Assembly (NCBI GenBank): GCA_028066245.1
Contig: JALCBR010000037.1
Coordinates: 1-41,328 of the forward strand
Direction of reading: 5' to 3'
From: Pirellulales bacterium
Lineage (GTDB): Bacteria; Planctomycetota; Planctomycetia; Pirellulales; S012-138
DNA: 41,328 bases
Shown here: in pieces, positions 17,941 to 28,728 of the stretch
How positions within the stretch are numbered: position 1 is the first letter of the stretch
How the letters are laid out: each line of letters starts with the position of its first letter
Made by a program: the position numbers and the translations under genes
The notes under the pieces: model-generated
Databases searched by the model: none
Seen by the model: the letters and a program-made list of their open reading frames with translations, nothing else
Told to the model about the DNA's origin: nothing

Positions 17941-18084
17941 CTGTTGATTTGCCTGCAGCATGCATGAATCCCAAAGGAGTAGGATTCCAAATCGTGGTTG
18001 AATGTGACGAGATTGCGAGCCATACGAGACCCGCTCGCACTTGGTTCGGGTTGAAAGACCACGATAGCGTTTTCAACAACCTGC
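17941..18084 (+). repeat. Dispersed intergenic repeat, family A, copy 2
   Basis: About 144 bases aligning along most of their length with 12620-12766. Both share GAATCCCAA, GGATTCCAAATCGTGG, TTGCGAGCC, CTCGCACTTGGTTCGGGTTG and CCACGAT blocks. The terminal hairpin (18050-18076) is degenerate here, since GTTGAAAGACCA faces TAGCGTTTTCAAC. The copy fills the space between frr and the NagA-like gene. Confidence 0.85.
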
Positions 18085-18108
18085 GAGCCGCCAAACGTTC
18101 CGCTGGTG

Positions 18109-19317
18109 ATGAAGTCCTTTTCTGCTCGCCGTTACGATACGCTGCAGCCTGTTCGCGTTCATGTTGGGAAACTCGGTCGGGTTGATTCTGTTGAAGCGTT
18201 ACACGATTCCATTGAGCTAGTCGACGGAGACTCATCGCTCCCCTTGCTGGCGCCTGGACTGTTTGATCTGCAAGTCAACGGCTACGGCGGATGTGAATTT
18301 TCCTCCCCCCAGTTAACGATACCGGATGTCCGCGAGATCGCGGCCGTCATGGCAACTCAAGGAGTCGTGAAGTTCTTGCCGACCATCACAACGGCGCCCA
18401 TCGATGTGATGGAGCATGCACTGACCATGGTCGCCGTTGCGGCATCGCCGGACTCAGCCAAATCTCCTGAACCTTCTCGCAAATCGAATGGCGCGCAGAT
18501 TGCCGGAATCCATCTGGAAGGGCCATTCCTTTGTTCAGAGGACGGTCCGCGTGGCGCGCACCTGAAAGAACATTGCCTTGAGCCATCGCTGAGCTTGTTT
18601 CAGCGGCTGCAACGTGCAGCAGCGGGGCAAATCCGCTTGTTGACCATGGCAGTTGAGTTTCCCAATGCCGCGGAATTCATTCGACAGGTGACTGCAACCG
18701 GCGTGACCGTGGCCATTGGGCACACCGCTGCGACAGACGCGCAGATTCAAGCAGCCGTGGCAGCCGGAGCGAAACTTTCGACGCACCTGGGAAACGGTGC
18801 CCATGCCGTTCTTCCACGTCATCCCAACTATATTTGGAGTCAACTGGCGGACGATCGCCTGTCTGCTAGCCTGATCGCCGATGATTTCCACTTGCCTGCT
18901 GGTGTGTTGAAAACCATCATTCGCGCCAAGACGCCCGCAAGATGCCTGCTTGTCAGTGACATGTCTGGCTACGCAGGTAAGCCGCCCGGACGCTATATAA
19001 CGGGGTTGGGTGAAATTGAAGTGTTGGAGTGCGGTAAGATTATAACTGCCGACCAGGAAACATTGCTGGCTGCTGCTTCCATGCCATTGACTGCTGGAAT
19101 CGCCAACGTTGCCAAATTCGGAGATGTTCCTCGGGCGATTGCCATTGAGATGGCGAGCACACACGCTGCGCAATGCTTAGGCAGCCAGTCCGCATTCCTT
19201 CAACATGGGGCAAGTGCTGATTTTACCCTGCTAGACTGGTCAGATGACTCAGTCGAGGAAATCGCCGTCCGCGGAACCATGATTGGCGGCGACATCGTGT
19301 TTGGGCATTTCGACTGA
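18109..19317 (+). CDS. nagA: N-acetylglucosamine-6-phosphate deacetylase (NagA-like)
   Basis: 402 aa. An amidohydrolase-superfamily enzyme that removes acetate from GlcNAc-6-phosphate in amino-sugar catabolism. Visible motifs are PGLFDLQVNGYGG, the metal-binding Glu in IHLEGPF (about 137), metal His in VAIGHTAAT (about 205) and STHLGNGAH (about 226), and the catalytic Asp in LLVSDMSGY (about 284). The usual forms are THLFNAM and TDA, so the active-site surroundings are divergent and substrate preference could differ. A GTG at 18106 immediately precedes the chosen ATG. No Shine-Dalgarno sequence is evident. No nagB or sugar PTS genes are adjacent. Confidence 0.82.
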   Translation: MKSFSARRYDTLQPVRVHVGKLGRVDSVEALHDSIELVDGDSSLPLLAPGLFDLQVNGYGGCEFSSPQLTIPDVREIAAVMATQGVVKFLPTITTAPIDVMEHALTMVAVAASPDSAKSPEPSRKSNGAQIAGIHLEGPFLCSEDGPRGAHLKEHCLEPSLSLFQRLQRAAAGQIRLLTMAVEFPNAAEFIRQVTATGVTVAIGHTAATDAQIQAAVAAGAKLSTHLGNGAHAVLPRHPNYIWSQLADDRLSASLIADDFHLPAGVLKTIIRAKTPARCLLVSDMSGYAGKPPGRYITGLGEIEVLECGKIITADQETLLAAASMPLTAGIANVAKFGDVPRAIAIEMASTHAAQCLGSQSAFLQHGASADFTLLDWSDDSVEEIAVRGTMIGGDIVFGHFD

Positions 19318-19552
19318 ACAGCAATCACCAATCTCTTGAAACGCCTCCCGGTGTCTGGCGGTAGGCCTTGTAGTGGCCCTGGCCGGGTATTGTTTGGGAA
19401 AAATTGGCCACCTGATAGCCAAGGGAATTTGCCAAGAAATCAGGTGCTTCGGCGAAGAACGAACATTCCGGTATGGGGGCATGCGATTTTTACCGCCGGA
19501 ACTCTGGCTGCAAAACATCGCAAACAGCGCTCCAGCAAGGACTTCCAAACTC

Positions 19553-20218
19553 ATGGCTAACCCTGCCAAGTTGATCGCCACCCTGATTCTTGCCCTGGTT
19601 GCCGCCGCTGGCTGCACTGTCAGCACCAGTTCACCGATTCCAGGATCTGGAGTCTTGGCACTACAAGAGCGGGAGTTGAAAGAGTTTGACGAGATCGAAA
19701 TCCGTTGTTCGGCGACTGTCGTTGTGAAGATCGGGGAACTTCAATCTGTCCTTGTGCAGACGGACGACAACCTGATCGATCTTGTTGAAACGCGAGTATC
19801 GCGAGACACGTTGCGAATTGACTGCGATGAGAATCTTGCGCCGGTCAATGATGTTACTGTGACCATCACCGTCGCTCGGCTCAAGGACTTGACCATTCGC
19901 GGCTCTGCCGAGGTGACCGTCACGGAACTTTTCGAGCCTGAATTCGATCTCGAAATTAGAGGCTCTGGTCATGTGGCGATCGAAGGTATCGCTCACCAGG
20001 TGGAAGCAAAGATTAGCGGGTCTGGCAGTCTGGATCTGGTAAAGCTGATCGCCCAAGACGTGGAATTGAGCATCACCGGCCGCGGTGATGCACACGTGTA
20101 TGCTGAAGAAGAACTGGACGTTCGGATCACTGGCACCGGCGATGTGGTTTATTCGGGCAATCCAGCACACATTGAACGCCGCATCACCGGGTCTGGCAAC
20201 ATTCGCGAAAGCGATTGA
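19553..20218 (+). CDS. DUF2807 (GIN-domain) lipoprotein
   Basis: 221 aa. The signal peptide AKLIATLILALVAAAGC ends in a lipobox, with Cys at residue 21 as the lipidated residue. The rest is a repetitive right-handed beta structure of the putative auto-transporter adhesin head (DUF2807/GIN) family, with short repeats centred on Gly-Ser-Gly: TIRGSAEVTV, EIRGSGHVAI, KISGSGSLDL, SITGRGDAHV, RITGTGDVVY, RITGSGNIRE. These fit a beta-helix lattice with one rung per roughly 18-20 residues. The frame is open from 19373, but ATG 19553 with AAGGA upstream starts the signal peptide. Probably an envelope lipoprotein of unknown function. Convergent with the C39 peptidase cluster. Confidence 0.85.
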   Translation: MANPAKLIATLILALVAAAGCTVSTSSPIPGSGVLALQERELKEFDEIEIRCSATVVVKIGELQSVLVQTDDNLIDLVETRVSRDTLRIDCDENLAPVNDVTVTITVARLKDLTIRGSAEVTVTELFEPEFDLEIRGSGHVAIEGIAHQVEAKISGSGSLDLVKLIAQDVELSITGRGDAHVYAEEELDVRITGTGDVVYSGNPAHIERRITGSGNIRESD

Positions 20219-20271
20219 GATGCGCCGGATTGTTTCGGTGAAGAACACGCATACCTGAATTGGGCGTCCGG

Positions 20272-21009
20272 TCAGTTCCCTGATGAGCCGGGCCCAGTCG
20301 TCAGCCGGTCCCGCAAGTACAAGCGGTTGGTTCTGCCAAGGTATGTTTCTCCCGGCTGCAACATCAGCGGAGACCATTCGACAGGTTTGTCATCTTTAGG
20401 CACAACCACCAGTCCCAGGTTTTGTTGCCATTGTCCGAGGAATTCACGGATGGGAACTCGCAGGTTTCCTCGTGCTGGATCGGCAAGGTAGACGTATTTT
20501 CCGTCTAATCCGCGGAAGACGACAAAGTGGTCATACTCGTTGACCACAATCCCGACGATGATCGGGGTCTTGGACTTCGCCAGCCCTTGGAGTGTCATCT
20601 TGAGGATTGATGCGTTGTAGTCAAATTTGTTGGATAATCTTCGCAAGTCGGTCAGCGTGAGCCCTTTCTGGATGCGCTCCAGTAGCTCTTCTTGCGTGAG
20701 CAGTTCATCGAGTCCGACCAGCAACTGGTATTCAGAAGTTTTGTCTCCTATGTGGTACGTCAGCATCGTGGCTAACGCCGCGGCGCCGCAAGAGAAGTCG
20801 CGCTGCTGCATCACGATGTTTTGCCGCTTGATCTCCATCCATGATTTGGGAAATCGGCGGAACGTCCGCGTGGAGTCTCGTACGGGAGACCTTGCTGTCG
20901 GCGGCTGCTGGGCGCGCAATTCCGCGCTGCCAAGCGTTAGGTTCATTAACAACGTCAGGGCGCTTGCGAGCGCCGCAACGCTGATGCGTCGTCGATTGGT
21001 CTGAATCAT
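20272..21009 (-). CDS. Exported C39-like cysteine peptidase, paralogue B (FapD-like)
   Basis: 245 aa. A Sec-type signal peptide (about residues 11-34, ending SAELRAQ) is followed by a C39-like papain-fold domain. Catalytic positions are Q69 and C74 in MQQRDFSCGAAALATML, H161 in YDHFVVFRG and D177 in YLADPARGN. There is no ABC transporter part, unlike bacteriocin-exporting C39 proteins. The layout matches FapD, the C39-like protein of Pseudomonas functional-amyloid operons. The C-terminus RDRLTTGPGSSGN is shared with the neighbouring paralogue. ATG 21009 is chosen at the signal peptide; a longer frame to 21105 lacks one. Last gene of the minus-strand cluster. Confidence 0.82.
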   Translation of the reverse strand: MIQTNRRRISVAALASALTLLMNLTLGSAELRAQQPPTARSPVRDSTRTFRRFPKSWMEIKRQNIVMQQRDFSCGAAALATMLTYHIGDKTSEYQLLVGLDELLTQEELLERIQKGLTLTDLRRLSNKFDYNASILKMTLQGLAKSKTPIIVGIVVNEYDHFVVFRGLDGKYVYLADPARGNLRVPIREFLGQWQQNLGLVVVPKDDKPVEWSPLMLQPGETYLGRTNRLYLRDRLTTGPGSSGN

Positions 21010-21139
21010 CACGGTTGGTGCCTGGGTCTGGACGGACGAACCGTTTGCAAGTTGAAGAGATTTACTTCCGCAGTCAAAAGCGATGGCCGGCGAGCCAACA
21101 CTCAACGGGATTTATGAAATGTCCTGAATGGTGAGAGTG

Positions 21140-21883
21140 TCAGTTTCCGGTGGAGCCAGGCCCAGTAGTCAATCGGTCGCGGAGATACCAACGATTGGTT
21201 TCTCCCAGCCAAACCTCCTCGGGCTGAACCATCAACGGTGACCAGTTGATAGTCGACTCATCTTTCGGCACAACCACCAAGCCTAAGTTCTGTTGCCATT
21301 GTCCAAGGAATTCACGGACCGGCACGCGCAGGTTGCCGCGAGCCGGGTCAGCAAGGTAGACGTATTTGCCGTCAAGTCCTCTGAATACGACGAAGTGGTC
21401 GTACTCGTTGACAATAATACCGACAATGATAGGTGTCTTGGATTCAGCCAAATCCTTCAGTGTCAGCTTGCCTATCGTGGCCGGGTAATCAAATTTGACA
21501 GCCAGCCTTCGCAAGTCGGTGAGTGTGAGACCTTTTTTAATGCGATCGAGGAGTTCTTCTTGGGTGAGCAGTTCATCGAGTCCGACCAACAACTGGTATT
21601 CAGAAGTTTTGTCTCCGATGTGGTAGGTCAGCATTGTCGCCAGCGCAGCGGCTCCGCAGGAGAAGTCGCGCTGTTGCATCACCACATTCTGCTGCTTGAT
21701 CTCCGTCCAGGACCTTGGGTAACGCCGGAACACACGTGCAGGGTCACGAACCGGCGCCCTCCCCTCTTTTTGTTGTTGCTGAGCCTGACTCTCTGTGCTT
21801 CCGCCGATCACGAACACGGCGGCTGTAAACATTCCAGCGAAGACTGCACCAGGCTTCGACAGGGACTTCTGCTTTATTTTCAC
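21140..21883 (-). CDS. Exported C39-like cysteine peptidase, paralogue A (FapD-like)
   Basis: 247 aa. A tandem paralogue of the downstream gene; the middle of the two proteins, from MQQRDFSCGAA to about TQEELL, is identical, and DNA identity is high there. Catalytic positions are Q71, C76, H163 and D179 (YDHFVVFRG, LADPARGN). The signal peptide (PGAVFAGMFTAAVFVIGG, ending ESQAQ) is unrelated to that of the paralogue. The start is GTG 21883: it places the signal peptide at the N-terminus and gives nearly the same length as the paralogue, whereas the frame open to 22054 adds a non-signal, compositionally odd lead. It starts 74 bases after the barrel gene. Confidence 0.82.
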   Translation of the reverse strand: MKIKQKSLSKPGAVFAGMFTAAVFVIGGSTESQAQQQQKEGRAPVRDPARVFRRYPRSWTEIKQQNVVMQQRDFSCGAAALATMLTYHIGDKTSEYQLLVGLDELLTQEELLDRIKKGLTLTDLRRLAVKFDYPATIGKLTLKDLAESKTPIIVGIIVNEYDHFVVFRGLDGKYVYLADPARGNLRVPVREFLGQWQQNLGLVVVPKDESTINWSPLMVQPEEVWLGETNRWYLRDRLTTGPGSTGN

Positions 21884-21957
21884 GGTTATTTCGCCTGAGT
21901 TTGATGAGTGAAGTGTCCGCTGGTCGTGGGTCGCGGCCTCCGGCGAATTTTGCTGAC

Positions 21958-23598
21958 TTAACGTGTCCAGGTGATTCCGATCACAGTATCCAGGGCAGTT
22001 TCTGTCAGCCCGACGTTGACAAACGGTTCGATCGTGCGGAACCCGTGAGCGCAATCCTTGGGTGTCACCGTAGCGGCAAACCGCAACGACATTGGCTCAC
22101 GAATGCCGCCGGCGACGCGGACACCATCGATCACATCAGAACCGATGTAGTTGCCAAAGAATGCCGTGCTGAACGTCACCTGGGGGTTCACGGCGAATCC
22201 GACGCCGAGACGGTAGAACGCATGTTGGCCTGGGTCGATCGCGAAACCGTCAATCGAATTGTTGAATCGATGCCGGTAACCAAGTCCGTAGAAGATGACA
22301 ACCGGATCATAGTTCTGGATGAAGAGCAGGTCGCCCCGCATCGTCCAGAATCCCTCGCCCAAGTTTGTGCCAGGCACGGTGCGAGTATTCAACAGGCTTG
22401 CCTCTCCGGTGGGAGCGGACCAGGCAACCGTCCCCAAGATCTCCGGGCAGATTTCGTTGCCTTGGACAAGCCGTCGAGTCAAACCCCAACTGACATCGCC
22501 AATGCCACCCGTGTTCTGAAATTCCTCAGAACCGGCGAATGCAAGTTCACTGTTGGACCAACCAAAGGGCACATTGACAAACATCTGGCTTGAGGGACCA
22601 ACACCCAAGCGAATCTCAAGCGGCGCCTGGAGAATTCGCTGACGTCGCACCACTTCGCCAACAAACAGGTTGTTGTTCAGAATCGTCAACCCGGCTGTGT
22701 CAATCGTGTCTTGCGAGTATTGCAGCGTCAGGTCAAATTGCCATTCACCTGGCTGCAACAGAATCGTATCACTGCGGAGAAAGAACAGCGTGTTCACGGA
22801 ATCGTCTTCGGGTTCTTCACCAAAGGTTCTGTCTTCATCGCCGACAGCTGGCGGCTGAACATCCTCGGCGCCGCCTGGCTGATTCGGAGGAAGAACCTGG
22901 TTACCACCTTGCTGAGTGTCAACCGAACCTTGATTGCTGCCTTGCAGCAGGCCATTGGCCCGGAGGGCGCTCAATGTCGCGTTGCGTTGACCTCGACTGT
23001 CCGAAACAGTTGAAGCTGACATCCTCGGCAAGTCTTTCTCCGAGCTTGTTGAAACAGGGATGCTCGGTCCGTGCAACCGCTGCACGCTTGACTTAGCGAT
23101 GTGATGTGCCGACGAAGGCGAAGGCAGGCTTTGCCTTCGACGAGACGACGGCGTCGTCGATTGCTGCAGCGCCTTGCTCACCAGCTCATGAGCAGCGACA
23201 GGAATGATCGGACGAGAATCCGAGATCCTTGGTGGCGGGGGAAGCCGCATTTGTTGAACAGCGGTCTCCACCTGAGGTGTGTTGGTTTCAACAACCCTCT
23301 GCTGCGTTTGTGATACATCTGCCCGACGCGAAGCTGGCAAGCTCGACTGGCGCAGTGCGTTGCTTGCCAAATTGCCGGTGTTCATGCGCGAGCTCGGCTT
23401 TGATACCGGCTGCGACAGTTCCCTCAACGCATCAGCGGCGAGTTCATGCGCGGAGACAGCTTTGGCCTCTTTGTGCGCATCGCCAGCTGCGACAGTCATG
23501 GCATCGCGCGATGTGACCGCCCCGACGAGGAGCGCGCCAAATCCCGCGACAAATGCTGTCGCGATCAACCGGCGTTGTTTTCCACCTGTGGCACTCAT
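21958..23598 (-). CDS. FapF-like outer-membrane beta-barrel with repeat-bearing N-terminus
   Basis: 546 aa. A signal or anchor segment (about residues 10-30) is followed by a low-complexity region to about 265 and then a beta-barrel (about 270-546). The N-terminal region repeats a degenerate unit AHELxxxALRxxSxPxS at about 50-66, 75-90, 136-151 and 164-183. The barrel has alternating strands such as GEWQFDLTLQYSQD, EIRLGVGPSSQMFVNVPFGW, GGIGDVSWGLTRRL, YDPVVIFYGLGYRHRF and FYRLGVGFAVNP, as in FapF of Pseudomonas and the Phenol_MetA_deg-type transporter family. The tail ends VIGITWTR. AGGAG lies seven bases before ATG 23598. The neighbouring C39-like genes strengthen the FapF comparison. Export of a secreted substrate across the outer membrane is inference. 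Confidence 0.75.
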   Translation of the reverse strand: MSATGGKQRRLIATAFVAGFGALLVGAVTSRDAMTVAAGDAHKEAKAVSAHELAADALRELSQPVSKPSSRMNTGNLASNALRQSSLPASRRADVSQTQQRVVETNTPQVETAVQQMRLPPPPRISDSRPIIPVAAHELVSKALQQSTTPSSRRRQSLPSPSSAHHIAKSSVQRLHGPSIPVSTSSEKDLPRMSASTVSDSRGQRNATLSALRANGLLQGSNQGSVDTQQGGNQVLPPNQPGGAEDVQPPAVGDEDRTFGEEPEDDSVNTLFFLRSDTILLQPGEWQFDLTLQYSQDTIDTAGLTILNNNLFVGEVVRRQRILQAPLEIRLGVGPSSQMFVNVPFGWSNSELAFAGSEEFQNTGGIGDVSWGLTRRLVQGNEICPEILGTVAWSAPTGEASLLNTRTVPGTNLGEGFWTMRGDLLFIQNYDPVVIFYGLGYRHRFNNSIDGFAIDPGQHAFYRLGVGFAVNPQVTFSTAFFGNYIGSDVIDGVRVAGGIREPMSLRFAATVTPKDCAHGFRTIEPFVNVGLTETALDTVIGITWTR

Positions 23599-23836
23599 CG
23601 AATGGCTCCTGACCACTCTCCATCCTTGGCGGTCATTGGCGTTCTTGATTGGGTCATGACTCCCTCCCTGATCCGTCGAGAGGGCCGCGCAGGGCGTCGA
23701 ATCTCATCAATTCGGCCGCCCATGGATCGCGGGACAAACTCTTCTGAAACTGCTCTGGCTGCACGGTCGTCGTTCGCACTTGTGCGTCTGGCACCACCCC
23801 TAGGGGGGGCGAGTGCGAATGACGTACTACAACGGC

Positions 23837-24991
23837 TTAGTAGGTAAAACCGCTTCCGATCGTGAAACCGATCAGGTCCAGATCGCCATCATGAGCGACT
23901 GACGTGGAGTCCACTCGTGCGCCATACGGTCCGGGAACTCCCTGGACTTGGGCGAAGGAGGTGGATTGAGCAAAAGCATCGCCCGTATCCCAGTGCTGGT
24001 ATTCCACGGCAATCTTGCAGAAGAACAACGCCGGAACGCAGCAAAGCTGACGTTCATACTGCAGGCCGATTTGTGCTTCGGAGACGTAGACGCCTTCGTC
24101 ATTGTTCGCTGCGGCAAATGCGGCGTTGCGAGCGATCGCGGTGGCGTTCACCATGGGAGCCGTGCGGAAGGCATCCGCTTGCGTCAAGGACGAAGCGCTG
24201 TAATCCGTGTACAGGTAAGAACCGCGGTAGTTCCAGAAGAAGTTCCAGCCGCAGCGGTGGTATAGCGGACGCGAAGCGCCGATTGAGAACGTGATGCCAG
24301 CACCTTCGATCTCGTTACTGCCAACGGCCAGGCCAAGCAAGTCCGTGCCGCCACCGAGCCGGCCAATGCCGACAACTTTGGCTTCACGTTCAATGTCAGC
24401 GTAGCGACCACCAATTGAACTGTTGAACGTCCAGCAGTTGCAGGCGATCTCTTGAGTAAATTCCAAGTCGACAACATCCATGTTCAAGTGATAGATCTCA
24501 TTGAACTGGGTGAATGCCGGCGCGGCGAAGTTTGCCGCGATCGGATCGACATTGACGGTGTCTTCTTCAAAGTGCCAGTACGTGGCACGGGTTCCCCAAC
24601 CGCAGCGTTGGATGCCGACCCAAGTACGAACACCGGTTCCCAAGCCAGGGCTGGATGTGCCAGTGAACTGCTGACCGGTAAGCAAATCCGTAAGAACGAC
24701 CTGCTGATCGGGTTCGCTAAAGGCAACCAAGTTGGTGGATTCGACGCCACCATAGAATCCACATCCTACACAGGTGTTACAGGCGCTGATAAAGTCGCCG
24801 TAGACTTGCTGCCCAGCCGTTTGAGGACCAGTGTTTCCGCCATCAACCACGGGGGCTGGAGCGGGTGGATCCTGAAAGTAAGATGAAGGCGTGGCCGGAG
24901 CTCGAAACGGCTCTTCCGCCACAGCATTGGCTGACAGCAGGCCCGCCAACAAGATTCCATTCGCAATTGCGAAGAGTTTTACGCATCTCAT
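23837..24991 (-). CDS. Lpg1974-like outer-membrane beta-barrel protein
   Basis: 384 aa. The signal peptide LFAIANGILLAGLLSANAVA ends near residue 25, followed by a Pro/Ala-rich linker and a Cys-containing stretch FISACNTCVGCGFYGG. The remainder alternates hydrophobic and polar strands: RATYWHFEED, VVDLEFTQEIACNCWTFNSS, IGGRYADIEREAK, GLQYERQL, AVEYQHWDTGD. It ends in an aromatic residue (IGSGFTY), as expected for a barrel inserted by BamA. The pattern fits the Lpg1974 pore-forming family, which is common in planctomycetes. A run of Gs (CCGGGGGGG) precedes the ATG by about nine bases. It lies between the secreted-protein gene and the FapF-like gene on the same strand. Confidence 0.72.
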   Translation of the reverse strand: MRCVKLFAIANGILLAGLLSANAVAEEPFRAPATPSSYFQDPPAPAPVVDGGNTGPQTAGQQVYGDFISACNTCVGCGFYGGVESTNLVAFSEPDQQVVLTDLLTGQQFTGTSSPGLGTGVRTWVGIQRCGWGTRATYWHFEEDTVNVDPIAANFAAPAFTQFNEIYHLNMDVVDLEFTQEIACNCWTFNSSIGGRYADIEREAKVVGIGRLGGGTDLLGLAVGSNEIEGAGITFSIGASRPLYHRCGWNFFWNYRGSYLYTDYSASSLTQADAFRTAPMVNATAIARNAAFAAANNDEGVYVSEAQIGLQYERQLCCVPALFFCKIAVEYQHWDTGDAFAQSTSFAQVQGVPGPYGARVDSTSVAHDGDLDLIGFTIGSGFTY

Positions 24992-25292
24992 CGATCAATT
25001 CCCCCCCGGGAAAATGCGCCAAGGCGCAAGCCTCTTGCTTGCGCTACGGGATATGGATTGTCTGGGACATTCCTGGTTTCAACGGTCCCGCGATGTGCTC
25101 CACGTGGCGCAATGTCCATGCGATCCATCGCGGGAGCGGTTCCGTTCCATGCTGGGAGTATCGTCAGGGGGATTCCAAAGAATGTAACTGGAATAGGCAG
25201 GATTCATGAAATGCATGAGCTAGCGAACAGCAAAGTTATCCTTCTTTCCGTATGTTGCCAGCAGTCACATTAACGCGGCTTTTTTTCTCTGC
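24992..25292 (-). other. Structured leader region upstream of the Lpg1974-like gene
   Basis: A 301-base gap between the terminator of the secreted-protein gene and the barrel gene. It contains a perfect 8-bp hairpin, GCGCAAGC-CTCTT-GCTTGCGC (25024-25044), and a 10-bp inverted repeat, TCCCGCGATG/CATCGCGGGA (25086-25095 and 25126-25135). Neither has a T-run, so they are not terminators. No coding gene is recognised. Confidence 0.45.
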
Positions 25293-25331
25293 GCGCAACA
25301 AAAACGCCCCTCCTGGTTTCAGGAGGAGCGT
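25293..25331 (-). terminator. Terminator of the small secreted protein gene
   Basis: On the minus strand ACGCTCCTCCTG-AAAC-CAGGAGGGGCGT forms a 12-bp stem with one G-U pair, followed by TTTTTG. It lies about 40 bases after the stop codon at 25372. The strength of the terminator suggests the secreted-protein gene is transcribed alone and at high level. Confidence 0.88.
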
Positions 25332-25371
25332 TCGCGTTTTTGCTTAATGCTAGCTACCCGTTGAAGGGTGC

Positions 25372-25785
25372 TTACTGAGCCGAAGCGGTCGAGAAACCAC
25401 CAGAGTTGGCAACGTAACCAGCGGAGAGCGTACCGAATGTCGGGATGGTCGCCGTAACGGCACCATTGGCGAACGAGCCATTACCTTGAGCGGCAACGCT
25501 TTGCAGCGGCAGGAGGTGCAACGCGGCGGCGAAGCCAGCGTTGTTGGCCGAGCTGTTAGTGGCAGCCAAGAAGACGTTGGCGTTACCGGCGGCACTGCTG
25601 GTACCAAACGTGACAGCGATCGAAGCCATGCCACGGACTTCCATACCTTCAGCGTCGCTGGCAACTTGCATGTTGCTCAGGCCCAAGGCCTTCAGCGTGC
25701 TGGAGGAAACTTGACCGTCATTGGCCATGGCCGGTGTGGCAACGAAAGCGACCAAAGCCGCTGCGACAAAAAGAACTTTCTTCAT
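25372..25785 (-). CDS. Small Sec-secreted Ala/Asn/Gly/Ser-rich protein
   Basis: 137 aa. A clean signal peptide, MKKVLFVAAALVAFVATPAM, is cleaved after AMA (about residue 21). The mature 116 residues are rich in Ala, Asn, Gly, Ser and Thr, have no Cys, and read as short hydrophobic/polar alternations (VFLAATNSSANNAGFAAALH, GSFANGAVTATIPTFG, SAGYVANSGGFSTASAQ). Between residues 35 and 52, LGLSNMQVASDAEGMEVRGM loosely resembles the leader motif cut by C39 peptidases (hydrophobic residues spaced before a Gly). I do not recognise a family. GGAG lies about eight bases upstream, with a strong promoter candidate and a strong terminator. It is a candidate fibre, sheath or amyloid subunit exported by the adjacent cluster; this is inference. 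Confidence 0.75.
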   Translation of the reverse strand: MKKVLFVAAALVAFVATPAMANDGQVSSSTLKALGLSNMQVASDAEGMEVRGMASIAVTFGTSSAAGNANVFLAATNSSANNAGFAAALHLLPLQSVAAQGNGSFANGAVTATIPTFGTLSAGYVANSGGFSTASAQ

Positions 25786-25883
25786 AATACAAGCTCCAGA
25801 ACCAAGAAAAAAGAAACTGCAAAATTGCTATGCAAGTAAGCCGTCCGGCGCGGGCCGAAAGCTCTCGCTAGTGCATTGGTTGG

Positions 25884-25912
25884 ATTTTGATCGGAGCCCA
25901 AGTCGCTGTCAA
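25884..25912 (-). promoter_or_regulatory. Candidate sigma-70-type promoter of the secreted protein gene
   Basis: On the minus strand a perfect -35 box TTGACA (25912-25907) is followed after 17 bases by CAAAAT (25889-25884, four of six matches to TATAAT). This would leave a leader of about 90 bases before the ATG at 25785. Confidence 0.5.
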
Positions 25913-26064
25913 CTGTTTTGTTTGCCCAGCCCGACTAATTTGGTGATTCTTCTTGCTCATTGAACTTGCTCTAAACAATCCCAGAGACAGCATTGCCATA
26001 AACTGTTTTACAGTGAAGACTTGAGGCTGAGCAGGCTATGGTTTTCAGAGCTTGCCCAGGCGTG

Positions 26065-26092
26065 AAAAAAGACCGTGGCAAAGGCCACGGCC
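26065..26092 (-). terminator. Rho-independent terminator of the C26-like gene
   Basis: On the minus strand GGCCGTGGC-CTTT-GCCACGGTC forms a 9-bp stem with one G-U pair, followed by TTTTTT. It lies 48 bases after the stop codon of the gene at 26141. Confidence 0.9.
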
Positions 26093-26140
26093 TTGAGTTT
26101 TCCTGAGCAATCGGGCAATGAGCCTACTTGCATTCCCGCA

Positions 26141-26938
26141 TCATGCGGCGACGAGCCGGAATTCTGTTTCCGTTGCCACAGGCTCAGCCACCATTGGTTC
26201 ACTGGTGGTTTTCACGCCATCAATGAACTCCTCAAAGATGCGCATGTCCAAAGCTGAAGCTGAGTCAGACTCCGGATGAAATTGTGTTCCCAGCGCAAAC
26301 CAGTCTGGCATTTCGCTCTCGATGCATTCGACGACGCCATCAGGGCATCGCCCCGTTACTCGAAAACCTCGTGCAACTTCATCAATGGCCATGTGATGCA
26401 TGCTGTTGACGCGGATCTCACCATCGCCGAAAACGCGCCACATCAGAGAATCCGGCACGATATCAAGGGCATGCCGGTGCCCTTTGTCAATGCTGTCCGC
26501 ATGCGGAAGCGCCTTGGGCATGTCTTCCGGGATGTGTAGGAACAGGTTTCCACCTTGCGACACATTGAGCAACTGCATGCCTGACCCAATCCCAAACACG
26601 GGCATCCGGCGTCTCGCGATCTGTTCCATCAAGCGACGATCAAACGTTTCGCGCCGCGCCTCTTGCAGCCGAATCGATGGATGCAGCATGAATCCGTCTC
26701 TTCGCGGATCAAGATCAGATCCGCCGATGAGCACGATTGCGTCCAGTAGGTCCAGCAACTGGCTTAGATCGCCGTCTTCGGCAATGGGTGGAATCAAAAG
26801 AGGTACGCCACCAACTTCGCTGATTGAGTCGTAGTAACCAGCGGCAACGTAACTGAATGCTGGAGATGACTTGGCTGCGGCACGGTAGTCAAGATTGATG
26901 CCAATGACGGGCTTCGTTGATGCAGATTTTGACGACAT
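26141..26938 (-). CDS. C26 class I amidotransferase-like protein lacking the catalytic Cys
   Basis: 265 aa. Class I glutamine-amidotransferase fold of the gamma-glutamyl-GABA hydrolase (PuuD-like, peptidase C26) group: PVIGINLDY at the N-terminus, IGGSDLDP, MPVFGIGSGMQLLNVSQGG, NSMHHMA and ALGTQFHPESD. In active members the nucleophile elbow is G-I-C-R-G-M; here it is G-I-G118-S-G-M, so the Cys is Gly. The His/Glu pair of the triad (H221, E223 in FHPE) is intact. It may be a pseudoenzyme or regulator. GGGAGGATCGCT precedes ATG 26938, a strong Shine-Dalgarno sequence, so the longer open frame to 27196 is rejected. A strong terminator follows. Confidence 0.85.
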   Translation of the reverse strand: MSSKSASTKPVIGINLDYRAAAKSSPAFSYVAAGYYDSISEVGGVPLLIPPIAEDGDLSQLLDLLDAIVLIGGSDLDPRRDGFMLHPSIRLQEARRETFDRRLMEQIARRRMPVFGIGSGMQLLNVSQGGNLFLHIPEDMPKALPHADSIDKGHRHALDIVPDSLMWRVFGDGEIRVNSMHHMAIDEVARGFRVTGRCPDGVVECIESEMPDWFALGTQFHPESDSASALDMRIFEEFIDGVKTTSEPMVAEPVATETEFRLVAA

Positions 26939-27384
26939 AGCGATCCTCCCGAAACGCGTACGCGTTCCTCGCAAATTGAAGGGATGATGAGGCCCAGCAA
27001 GAATAGCGCGGGAAGCTCGCAACCAAGCAAGTGGTTGCGACGTCGTCAGTCGGATCGAATCCGAACCAAGGCATTTGAGAATCCTGACGGCCTGCGACGC
27101 TTCGAATCCATCGAGCACCAGCAAACTCCTATTCCAAGGAGGTGGCAAAATGCTGGTGTGCGTCTTTGTCTTCCTTAACTGGCCTTGCACTTCCATGTGA
27201 TGTCAGGGCAACGCGCCCTGCAAGTGGCCCAAACCATAGCGAGCGGTTAGCAAAACGCAAGAAATTGGCCGATTTTGCGGACCAGTTGGTCTTGCACTAC
27301 AAGATATCGAGCTAGCACCCTTCTGCGGCTTTCGCCACAAGTCCCATCCAAGGCTGGGTTTTTGCTGAGAACAAGTCGCTGGCG
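26939..27384. other. Intergenic region without a recognised gene
   Basis: 446 bases between the C26-like gene and the end of the MFS gene. On the plus strand AAGGAGGTGGCAAA precedes an ATG at about 27149, giving only a 16-codon frame. No terminator with a T-run is seen for the MFS gene. Confidence 0.5.
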
Positions 27385-28728
27385 TTATTCGCCTTGCGGT
27401 GTCTTCTCCTGGAGTGGTGAAGGGTCTTCTTGCCTGTAGTCTCCGCCGCGTTTTGCCGCAATCACAATCATTCCGCCGCCCAACAGCATGGTAAGAATTG
27501 CCAATGCAAACGGTCCGTAGCCGCTGCGATAGATCAACGGAACGCCCGCCAATGGCCCAAAGATGCGGGCCATCGAGTTCGCGCTCTGGAGCAACCCCAA
27601 CATCAACCCTTGCTTCTCTGGGGGAGTGCGGCGCGAAATCAGTGAGTTGATAGAGGGCGTAATGAACGCAAACCCTGAAACGACCAACCCAAGTCCGACA
27701 AAAAGCACCGACTGGAGATGGCGGTATGCCGCGTAGATCAGCACGGCATTGCCAATCACGGAAACAAGTACGCCAAAAGATGCTAATGAACGCTCCGCAT
27801 ACTTTTTGGCGAAGCGGCGCACAAACCCTCCTTGCACAACTAAGAGAACAAAACCGATGTAGGCAAACGTCAAGCAGATCTCGGCCAGATCGTAGTCAAA
27901 TGGCTTGACCGCTAATTCCCGCCCACCATCATCTCGCCGAAGCAAAAGCGCTAACGTGCTTTCAAAGTTCGCGAAAGCGAAAACGGTCACAAACGAAGCC
28001 AGAATCAACAACCCGACTGACGGTACGGAAACCGCCGTCCGCATGGCTTCCCTGTCAATCCATGATCTGCGCGCCGGGCGAACTCCGGGTTGGTAGCTTT
28101 CCGGTAACTTGAAGTACGCCAGCAGCAACGCGGCGAGCGAAAGCCCGGCCGCGGCAAAGCCAGGCATGCCGCTGGGCGTGATAGAGACTGTTCCGTCCAC
28201 GTTGGTCGTTGCACTCTCTCCGACTAGCGCCAGGATGGCGAACAGAGGCCCAAGAGTGAATCCGAGCCCGAAGGCAGCACCGATTAGCGCCATGCCTCGT
28301 GACCGTTCCTGATGCGGCGTTGTGTCCGCGATGTAAGCCTGTGCCGTCCCGATAGTCGCTCCAGCGATTCCAGCTCCGATACGGGAGACAAACAACAGGA
28401 TCACACTTCTTTGCATAGTTGCCCATCCAAAGAGGGCATAGAAGACAACTGAGCCTCCCAGGCCAATCATCAGCACTGGCCGGCGACCAATGGTGTCGGA
28501 AATACGTCCCCAAACCGGAGCAAACAAGAACTGCATCGCTGAAAAACTGGCAAACAGCAAGCCGACTAGGAGCGCCTTGTACTCGTTCAGAAACTGATCC
28601 GCGTAGATGGGCAACAGCGGGATCACGATTCCGAAGCCCAGCAGGTCGATAAAGACTGCCAAGAACAAGACGGCCAAAGATCCGCGCCCTGGGGATGAAG
28701 TCACGGATGTTGATTCTGGATTGCTCAT
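27385..28728 (-). CDS. MFS transporter, drug/H+ antiporter type (TetA-like)
   Basis: 447 aa. About twelve membrane helices. The first starts SLAVLFLAVFIDLLGFGIVI. Motif A, the loop between helices 2 and 3, is GRISDTIGRRPVLMIG. The helix 5 motif resembles the antiporter motif C: GAAFGLGFTLGPLFA. The D-L-L-G-F-G-I-V-I-P-L-L-P signature in helix 1 is typical of the TetA/Bcr-like drug efflux group. A large central loop (about 215-240) links the two six-helix halves. Substrate is unknown; the family also includes sugar and siderophore exporters. ATG 28728 (MSNPEST) is chosen over an upstream TTG at 28746. The gene stands alone. Confidence 0.85.
   Translation of the reverse strand: MSNPESTSVTSSPGRGSLAVLFLAVFIDLLGFGIVIPLLPIYADQFLNEYKALLVGLLFASFSAMQFLFAPVWGRISDTIGRRPVLMIGLGGSVVFYALFGWATMQRSVILLFVSRIGAGIAGATIGTAQAYIADTTPHQERSRGMALIGAAFGLGFTLGPLFAILALVGESATTNVDGTVSITPSGMPGFAAAGLSLAALLLAYFKLPESYQPGVRPARRSWIDREAMRTAVSVPSVGLLILASFVTVFAFANFESTLALLLRRDDGGRELAVKPFDYDLAEICLTFAYIGFVLLVVQGGFVRRFAKKYAERSLASFGVLVSVIGNAVLIYAAYRHLQSVLFVGLGLVVSGFAFITPSINSLISRRTPPEKQGLMLGLLQSANSMARIFGPLAGVPLIYRSGYGPFALAILTMLLGGGMIVIAAKRGGDYRQEDPSPLQEKTPQGE

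Follow-up and report, generated by a model that had tools for sequence, protein, structure and literature searches.

Gene content and layout of the locus

The window analyzed here (the whole 41,328-nucleotide stretch of DNA, contig JALCBR010000037.1 of a Pirellulales bacterium) contains five minus-strand open reading frames at 25785 to 20272. In transcription order they encode a 137-aa secreted protein, a 384-aa barrel, a 552-aa FapF-like barrel, and two C39 peptidases (Table 1). An earlier examination of the letters alone (the sequence-only reading) had given the same five genes in this order and proposed a divergent Fap-like functional-amyloid export locus. The C39 genes likely start at a GTG near 21883 and an ATG near 21009 rather than with their longest open reading frames. 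The five-gene arrangement is not due to chance, as it recurs across planctomycetes. A strong terminator hairpin (z -5.4) lies between the small gene and the export genes, so that the two are probably separate or unequally expressed units; a separate pattern scan for terminators missed this hairpin. An Rfam search returned no match. Convergent with the second C39 gene is a gene for a secreted DUF2807 (head GIN domain) protein (19373-20218, plus strand).

Table 1. Features of the locus, with window positions
Feature	Position	Strand	Basis
Small secreted leader protein (137 aa), proposed exported substrate	25372..25785	-	ORF; leader profile match E 4.1e-16 in whole genome
Sec-type signal peptide, residues 1-21 (MKKVLFVAAALVAFVATPAMA)	25723..25785	-	Read from sequence
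C39-type leader, residues 31-52 (LKALGLSNMQVASDAEGMEVRG), predicted cut at or one residue after RG	25630..25695	-	Conservation in 44 leaders; FapE core pattern
Variable Ala/Ser/Gly/Thr/Asn-rich mature region, residues 53-137	25375..25629	-	Composition; no confident fold
Intrinsic terminator hairpin 3' of small gene	25302..25333	-	MFE -30.2 kcal/mol for 25290-25345, z -5.4, then T-rich run
Lpg1974/Legionella_OMP-like outer-membrane barrel (384 aa)	23837..24991	-	Legionella_OMP E 4e-4; relatives in 28/30 loci plus L092
FapF-like outer-membrane export barrel (552 aa)	21958..23616	-	NCBIfam FapF; PDB FapF; model vs FapF 5o67
N-terminal extension of FapF-like protein, residues 1-283, Pro/Ser-rich, predicted disordered	22768..23616	-	pLDDT <50 over most
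Beta-barrel domain of FapF-like protein, residues 284-552	21961..22767	-	Confident strands in model; Foldseek top 18 = FapF
Sec-exported C39 peptidase 1	21140..21883	-	GTG start likely; ORF extends to 22054; Peptidase_C39, FilB, FapD matches; Cys/His/Asp
Sec-exported C39 peptidase 2	20272..21009	-	ATG start likely; ORF extends to 21105; tandem duplicate

The two C39 proteins match Pfam Peptidase_C39 with E values of 5e-21 and 6e-19. Their matches to NCBIfam FilB (E 2.6e-23 and 1.3e-21; 83 and 77 bits, cut-off 475) are slightly better than those to FapD (E 1.8e-21 and 3.2e-20; 76 and 72 bits, equivalog cut-off 330), and both lie far under either equivalog cut-off. Each begins with an N-terminal hydrophobic segment, as read from the sequence, and neither contains an ABC domain by Pfam or NCBIfam. 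The catalytic Cys, His, and Asp are invariant across 44 aligned C39 relatives. These results bear out the description of two Sec-exported C39-like peptidases with intact Cys/His/Asp and no ABC domain. The two proteins are about 75% identical and, judged by their sequences, are a tandem duplication; related planctomycete loci show one C39 gene. Elsewhere, a proteobacterial genome (G477) carries at least six FapD-like C39 genes, and at one of its loci (L116, contig C111) two C39 genes each adjoin a FapF-like barrel.

For the 552-aa protein, FapF is the only NCBIfam match (E 2.9e-6; 26 bits, cut-off 700), and FapF chains are the only PDB sequence matches (E 3e-7). A Pfam search gave no match and hence no Pfam channel family. 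An AlphaFold2 model built from 20 relatives shows residues 284-552 as a confident barrel, and the first 18 Foldseek matches to this barrel are all FapF chains (best, 5o67, E 3e-20), followed by the COG4313 channel 4rl8 (E 1.5e-12). By sequence and fold, the large barrel is genuinely related to FapF. The sequence-only reading had left room for a generic Phenol_MetA_deg transporter; the HMM match, PDB, and fold agree on FapF, and on this ranking we reject a generic COG4313/Phenol_MetA_deg uptake channel. At the N terminus, where FapF has a periplasmic trimeric coiled coil, the AlphaFold2 model shows the Pro/Ser-rich residues 35-283 almost wholly without helix, with pLDDT <50. Loose HELxxxALxxS...P.SRR repeats occur in this N-terminal region (22768-23616, minus strand).

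For the 384-aa barrel, the Pfam match to Legionella_OMP (E 4e-4) stays under the gathering score and underlies the assignment as an Lpg1974-like outer-membrane barrel. Its relatives are found in 28 of 30 planctomycete loci plus L092. The window's genome has one strong Lpg-type copy, located in the export locus, and the barrel-positive genomes outside the Rhodopirellula type likewise have exactly one, in the locus. A genome of the Rhodopirellula type (G898) has several weaker matches, and the negative genomes scanned have distant homologs or none, with nothing better than about E 1e-40. On copy number and position in the locus, we reject an abundant planctomycete porin present as a bystander.

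A leader shared by the secreted proteins

The small protein has no Pfam or NCBIfam match, FapE (NF058559) included. It had been described as a small secreted low-complexity protein. The Sec signal and the Ala/Ser/Gly/Thr/Asn-rich tail hold, but the protein is not merely low-complexity, since residues 31-52 form an ordered leader. Its structural model is unreliable (pLDDT 43), and the leader is partly helical in it. The leader, L..[FM]GL....[MIVL]SD.E[GA]..[VI]RG, lies behind the Sec signal and is common to about 50 otherwise dissimilar Gly/Ser/Ala-rich proteins of these loci. When 44 distinct leaders were aligned on the motif, conservation extended from -22 to +2, with Leu at -22, an invariant Gly at -18, and a near-invariant Leu at -17. 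Further conserved positions are Ser -10, Asp -9, Glu -7, Gly/Ala -6, and Val/Ile -3, with Arg at -2 in 44/44 and Gly at -1 in 43/44. Conservation collapses beyond the Gly at +2, a pattern that a site for recognition and cutting would show. The leader of L092 (4942-5454, minus strand) has the sole VRA ending among the 44, the rest ending in VRG or IRG. Both the window leader VASDAEGMEVRG and the 44-leader profile fit the hydrophobic-Ser-x-x-Glu-x-x-x-hydrophobic-x-Gly form of C39 leaders. The mature regions of the leader proteins are 39% Gly+Ser+Ala, low in charge, and almost Cys-free, with 9% N+Q when pooled.

Leader genes number one to five per locus and one to ten per genome, and a few copies lie far from the export locus. 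The window's genome has such a second leader protein (L004/L091, G000:C123:57306), an orphan substrate candidate whose gene has an alpha/beta-hydrolase-like ORF and a Gln-rich ORF as neighbors. Loci of the Rhodopirellula/Rubripirellula type (L022, L024, L028, L029, L032, and L034) contain two Lpg-type barrels each and up to five different leader proteins, encoded on both strands, as a diversifying cargo array.

A C39-profile scan of 84,980 genomes yielded 36 loci, 23 planctomycete-like and 13 proteobacterial; scan loci and loci from further genome searches made up the set of 30 planctomycete loci. C39 and barrel genes have stayed together, fapF and C39 being adjacent on one strand in 30/30 of these loci (a few represent the same genome twice). 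The secreted protein is kept as well: it is present at nearly all loci, and within one family 39 of the 44 genomes with the barrel have it. The system is patchy, occurring in 6/392 genomes sampled across the phylum and 44/241 in that family. In the 392-genome sample, five genomes had a strong barrel match, and these same five, with no others, gave leader hits at E<1e-10. Among the 241 family genomes, the barrel occurs in 44 and the leader in 40 (both, 39; barrel only, 5; leader only, 1; neither, 196); the Fisher p value of 2.8e-38 is uncorrected for kinship, the genomes not being independent. At the genus level, the counts are 14 with both, five with the barrel only, one with the leader only, and 48 with neither. 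A leader lies within 10 kb of the barrel gene in 33 of the 40 leader-positive genomes. Some of the loci used to train the leader profile had been found next to C39 genes; that the leader is nearly absent elsewhere does not hinge on this training.

On this linkage, we reject a chance neighborhood of barrel, C39 genes, and small protein. It also bears on an account in which the barrel takes up hydrophobic compounds as a COG4313/Phenol_MetA_deg channel and the other genes are chance neighbors. Such channels share a barrel fold family with FapF, and 4rl8 follows FapF in the fold search; however, they match the structure less well, by about eight orders of magnitude in E, no Pfam channel family is matched, the planctomycete barrel is always beside a C39 gene (30/30), and the leader co-occurs with it. 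We regard the uptake account as very improbable.

Comparison with Fap and other C39 systems

Gammaproteobacterial genomes with strong FapD matches were used as the source of Fap operons, together with one Aeromonas operon. In the named control genomes, a FapD family search found nothing above the cut-off, so the comparison covers Fap operons from Gammaproteobacteria other than Pseudomonas. The gammaproteobacterial operons encode FapC-like repeats and then FapD, FapE, and FapF in order; NF058559 confirms FapE in three of them (L099, L101, and L103). A search of plasmids found no FapE. NZ_AP026896.1 and NZ_CP104448.1 (4.9 and 4.1 Mb) are filed as plasmids and, judging from their size, look like chromosomes.

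Ten FapE proteins (gammaproteobacterial, including Aeromonas) display a pattern of approximately L[ST]D.EL..[ML]RG[RK] just behind the signal peptide. By position, this comprises L/V/I at -11, S/T/P/A at -10, D at -9 in 6/10, E at -7 in 7/10, L/M at -6, M/L/I/Q at -3, and RG followed by R/K and Y/F. FapE was scored with the planctomycete leader profile, RG columns excluded, and the leader window was the best of all offsets. The score had a p value of 0.009 when one column permutation was applied to all sequences, which keeps their relatedness, and was reached by 0/20,000 permutations when each sequence was shuffled alone; some single FapE sequences fall below significance by themselves. These scores suggest a statistical link of moderate strength between the planctomycete and FapE leaders. 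As the pattern lies at the same place on all ten FapE, the leader is a candidate FapD recognition site.

The substrate of FapD was called undetermined (PMC6173800), and FapD was thought in 2025 to process FapE and FapF (PMC12822426). Fap proteins have been stated to lack canonical C39 sequences; FapD is periplasmic and needs its cysteine, C38A abolishing FapC secretion; and whole-cell mass spectrometry recovered N-terminal peptides of every Fap protein but FapE (PMC5557850).

Proteobacterial C39-FapF or C39-Fil loci also encode Sec proteins with leader-like motifs, such as LSTAEMGEIKGG, MTQTEMQETQGA, and VADSELNHSRG; LSTAEMGEIKGG, at a C39-FapF locus, has the canonical double-Gly form. The motif is MDDAALSAATG in an Acinetobacter FilA-type protein (L215). 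Tandem DUF6160 (FilA-type) proteins with the leader MTDTAMSNATG (L113:8512-10697, minus strand) lie near a C39-FapF pair, which suggests a C39-cargo role for DUF6160.

Like the Fap system of Pseudomonas (fapABCDEF), the window locus has a Sec-exported C39 peptidase beside a FapF barrel and a secreted protein with an SD.E...RG-type leader, carried in Fap operons by FapE. Unlike Fap, it has no FapA, FapB, FapC, or FapE family match, contains the extra Lpg1974-like barrel, has a long, predicted disordered N terminus on the FapF-like protein and a terminator between the substrate gene and the export genes, and scores far under the NCBIfam cut-offs. The absent subunits and sub-cut-off scores rule out a strict Fap operon. 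The Acinetobacter Fil locus similarly has a periplasmic C39 protein, FilB being the best NCBIfam match of the window C39 proteins, near a Sec-exported protein that has a motif resembling the leader (L215); it differs in that the window has no DUF6160/FilA match and reaches only 83 of the 475 bits for FilB. Double-glycine (C39, PCAT) bacteriocin export shares the C39 fold and catalytic residues and a leader with hydrophobic, Ser, Glu, hydrophobic, and Gly residues at matching spacing, whereas the window system is without an ABC transporter. The window peptidase and substrates carry Sec signals, and cutting would therefore be periplasmic.

Proposed export pathway and its cargo

With a FapF-type barrel, C39-barrel linkage, and a secreted protein at nearly all loci, the reading of a divergent Fap-like export locus stands. 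We consider it probable that the locus encodes a two-step, Fap-related secretion pathway, in which Sec export is followed by periplasmic C39 cutting of the leader and exit through the FapF-like barrel. We infer, with good support, that the small protein is exported; cutting of its leader, the position of the cut, and the function of the product are put forward conditionally. The small protein, C39 peptidases, and barrels would cross the inner membrane by Sec. A periplasmic FapD-like C39 peptidase would then recognize the leader behind the signal peptide and cut it at RG or one residue after. The released Gly/Ser/Ala-rich part would leave through the FapF-like barrel, probably unfolded. The Lpg1974-like barrel, a constant companion of this machinery, may act as an anchor at the surface or as another channel. 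Surface or matrix structures are what the exported proteins would most likely form.

Canonical C39 peptidases cut after a GG or GA motif preceded by an LSxxELxxI-type helix. Canonical spacing would put the bond one residue after RG, position -6 is Gly/Ala in planctomycetes where canonical leaders and FapE have Leu, and RG is followed by a variable residue; the predicted cut position is thus uncertain by one residue. Since the proteobacterial leader sits on FapE, this same motif would be where FapD cuts FapE.

Certain C39-like domains work without proteolysis. The leader might be a sorting or docking signal for the barrels, with the C39 proteins acting as chaperones or cutting a different partner, for instance the N-terminal extension of the FapF-like protein; FapF has been discussed as a possible FapD target (PMC5557850), and conservation to -22, with the invariant Gly and near-invariant Leu at -18/-17, reaches beyond classical double-Gly leaders. 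This is unlikely, given that the catalytic triad is invariant in 44/44 relatives, that conservation stops at the expected cut, and that FapD activity needs its Cys (PMC5557850). A similarly low probability is assigned to export of bacteriocin- or microcin-like antagonistic peptides, released via an outer-membrane channel instead of an ABC exporter. The leader resembles those of class II bacteriocins, C39 relatives mostly serve bacteriocin exporters, and the Gly/Ser/Ala-rich composition and several variable paralogs per locus would fit; yet no immunity gene was seen next to the window's small gene, the one studied case links FapF/FapD-type machinery with surface fibers, and the fiber-associated FapE has the same kind of leader.

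The periplasmic-cleavage pathway that we favor leaves the cargo to be considered, for which functional amyloid had been proposed. That proposal was not supported: no ORF within 18000-28500 of the window encodes an N/Q-rich imperfect-repeat subunit like FapB or FapC, the small protein is not N/Q-rich, and curlin-like repeats were found in one relative of about 50 leader proteins. In that relative (L036:11073-11792, minus strand), five 23-aa curlin-like IxQxGxxN repeats follow the same leader without recognition by Pfam; three fit the strict pattern and two more were placed by eye at the same spacing. Such cargo can therefore be attached to the leader. A partial search saw none of these repeats in the window protein, which by its leader resembles FapE rather than the amyloid subunits FapB/FapC. 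A strict functional-amyloid exporter, whose small proteins polymerize into extracellular cross-beta fibers like FapC, is consequently a possibility that we hold doubtful. The FapF/FapD-type machinery, the low-charge, Gly/Ser/Ala-rich, almost Cys-free mature regions, and the L036 protein speak for it, and the missing repeats, the pooled N+Q content, the FapE-like leader, and the unreliable model of the small protein against it.

The sequence-only reading took Fap to be described mainly from Proteobacteria. Fap was indeed reported as restricted to them (PMC3792158); co-located fapD/fapF homologs were reported in 2018 from five further phyla, in a text that makes no mention of Planctomycetes (PMC6173800), so the pair is not new outside Proteobacteria. 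Among the accessible papers that combine Planctomycetes with functional amyloid, titles and abstracts pointed to no such system. Descriptions of the leader, its occurrence on FapE, or the planctomycete cargo family were not found in a search outside of which most subscription literature and preprints lay.

On a broader view, to which we give about even chances, Sec export, periplasmic double-Gly-type cleavage, and exit by a FapF-family barrel would form a general pathway in Planctomycetes and Proteobacteria, with Fap and Fil as branches, FapE as a FapD substrate cut at RG, and a planctomycete branch whose exported surface proteins are numerous and diversify fast. Fap amyloid secretion requires FapD, and the leader shared by planctomycete proteins and FapE offers a precise and easily tested cut site. 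In a phylum with poorly known surface biology, the leader may also provide a route to secretion cargo that does not depend on knowing the fold of that cargo.
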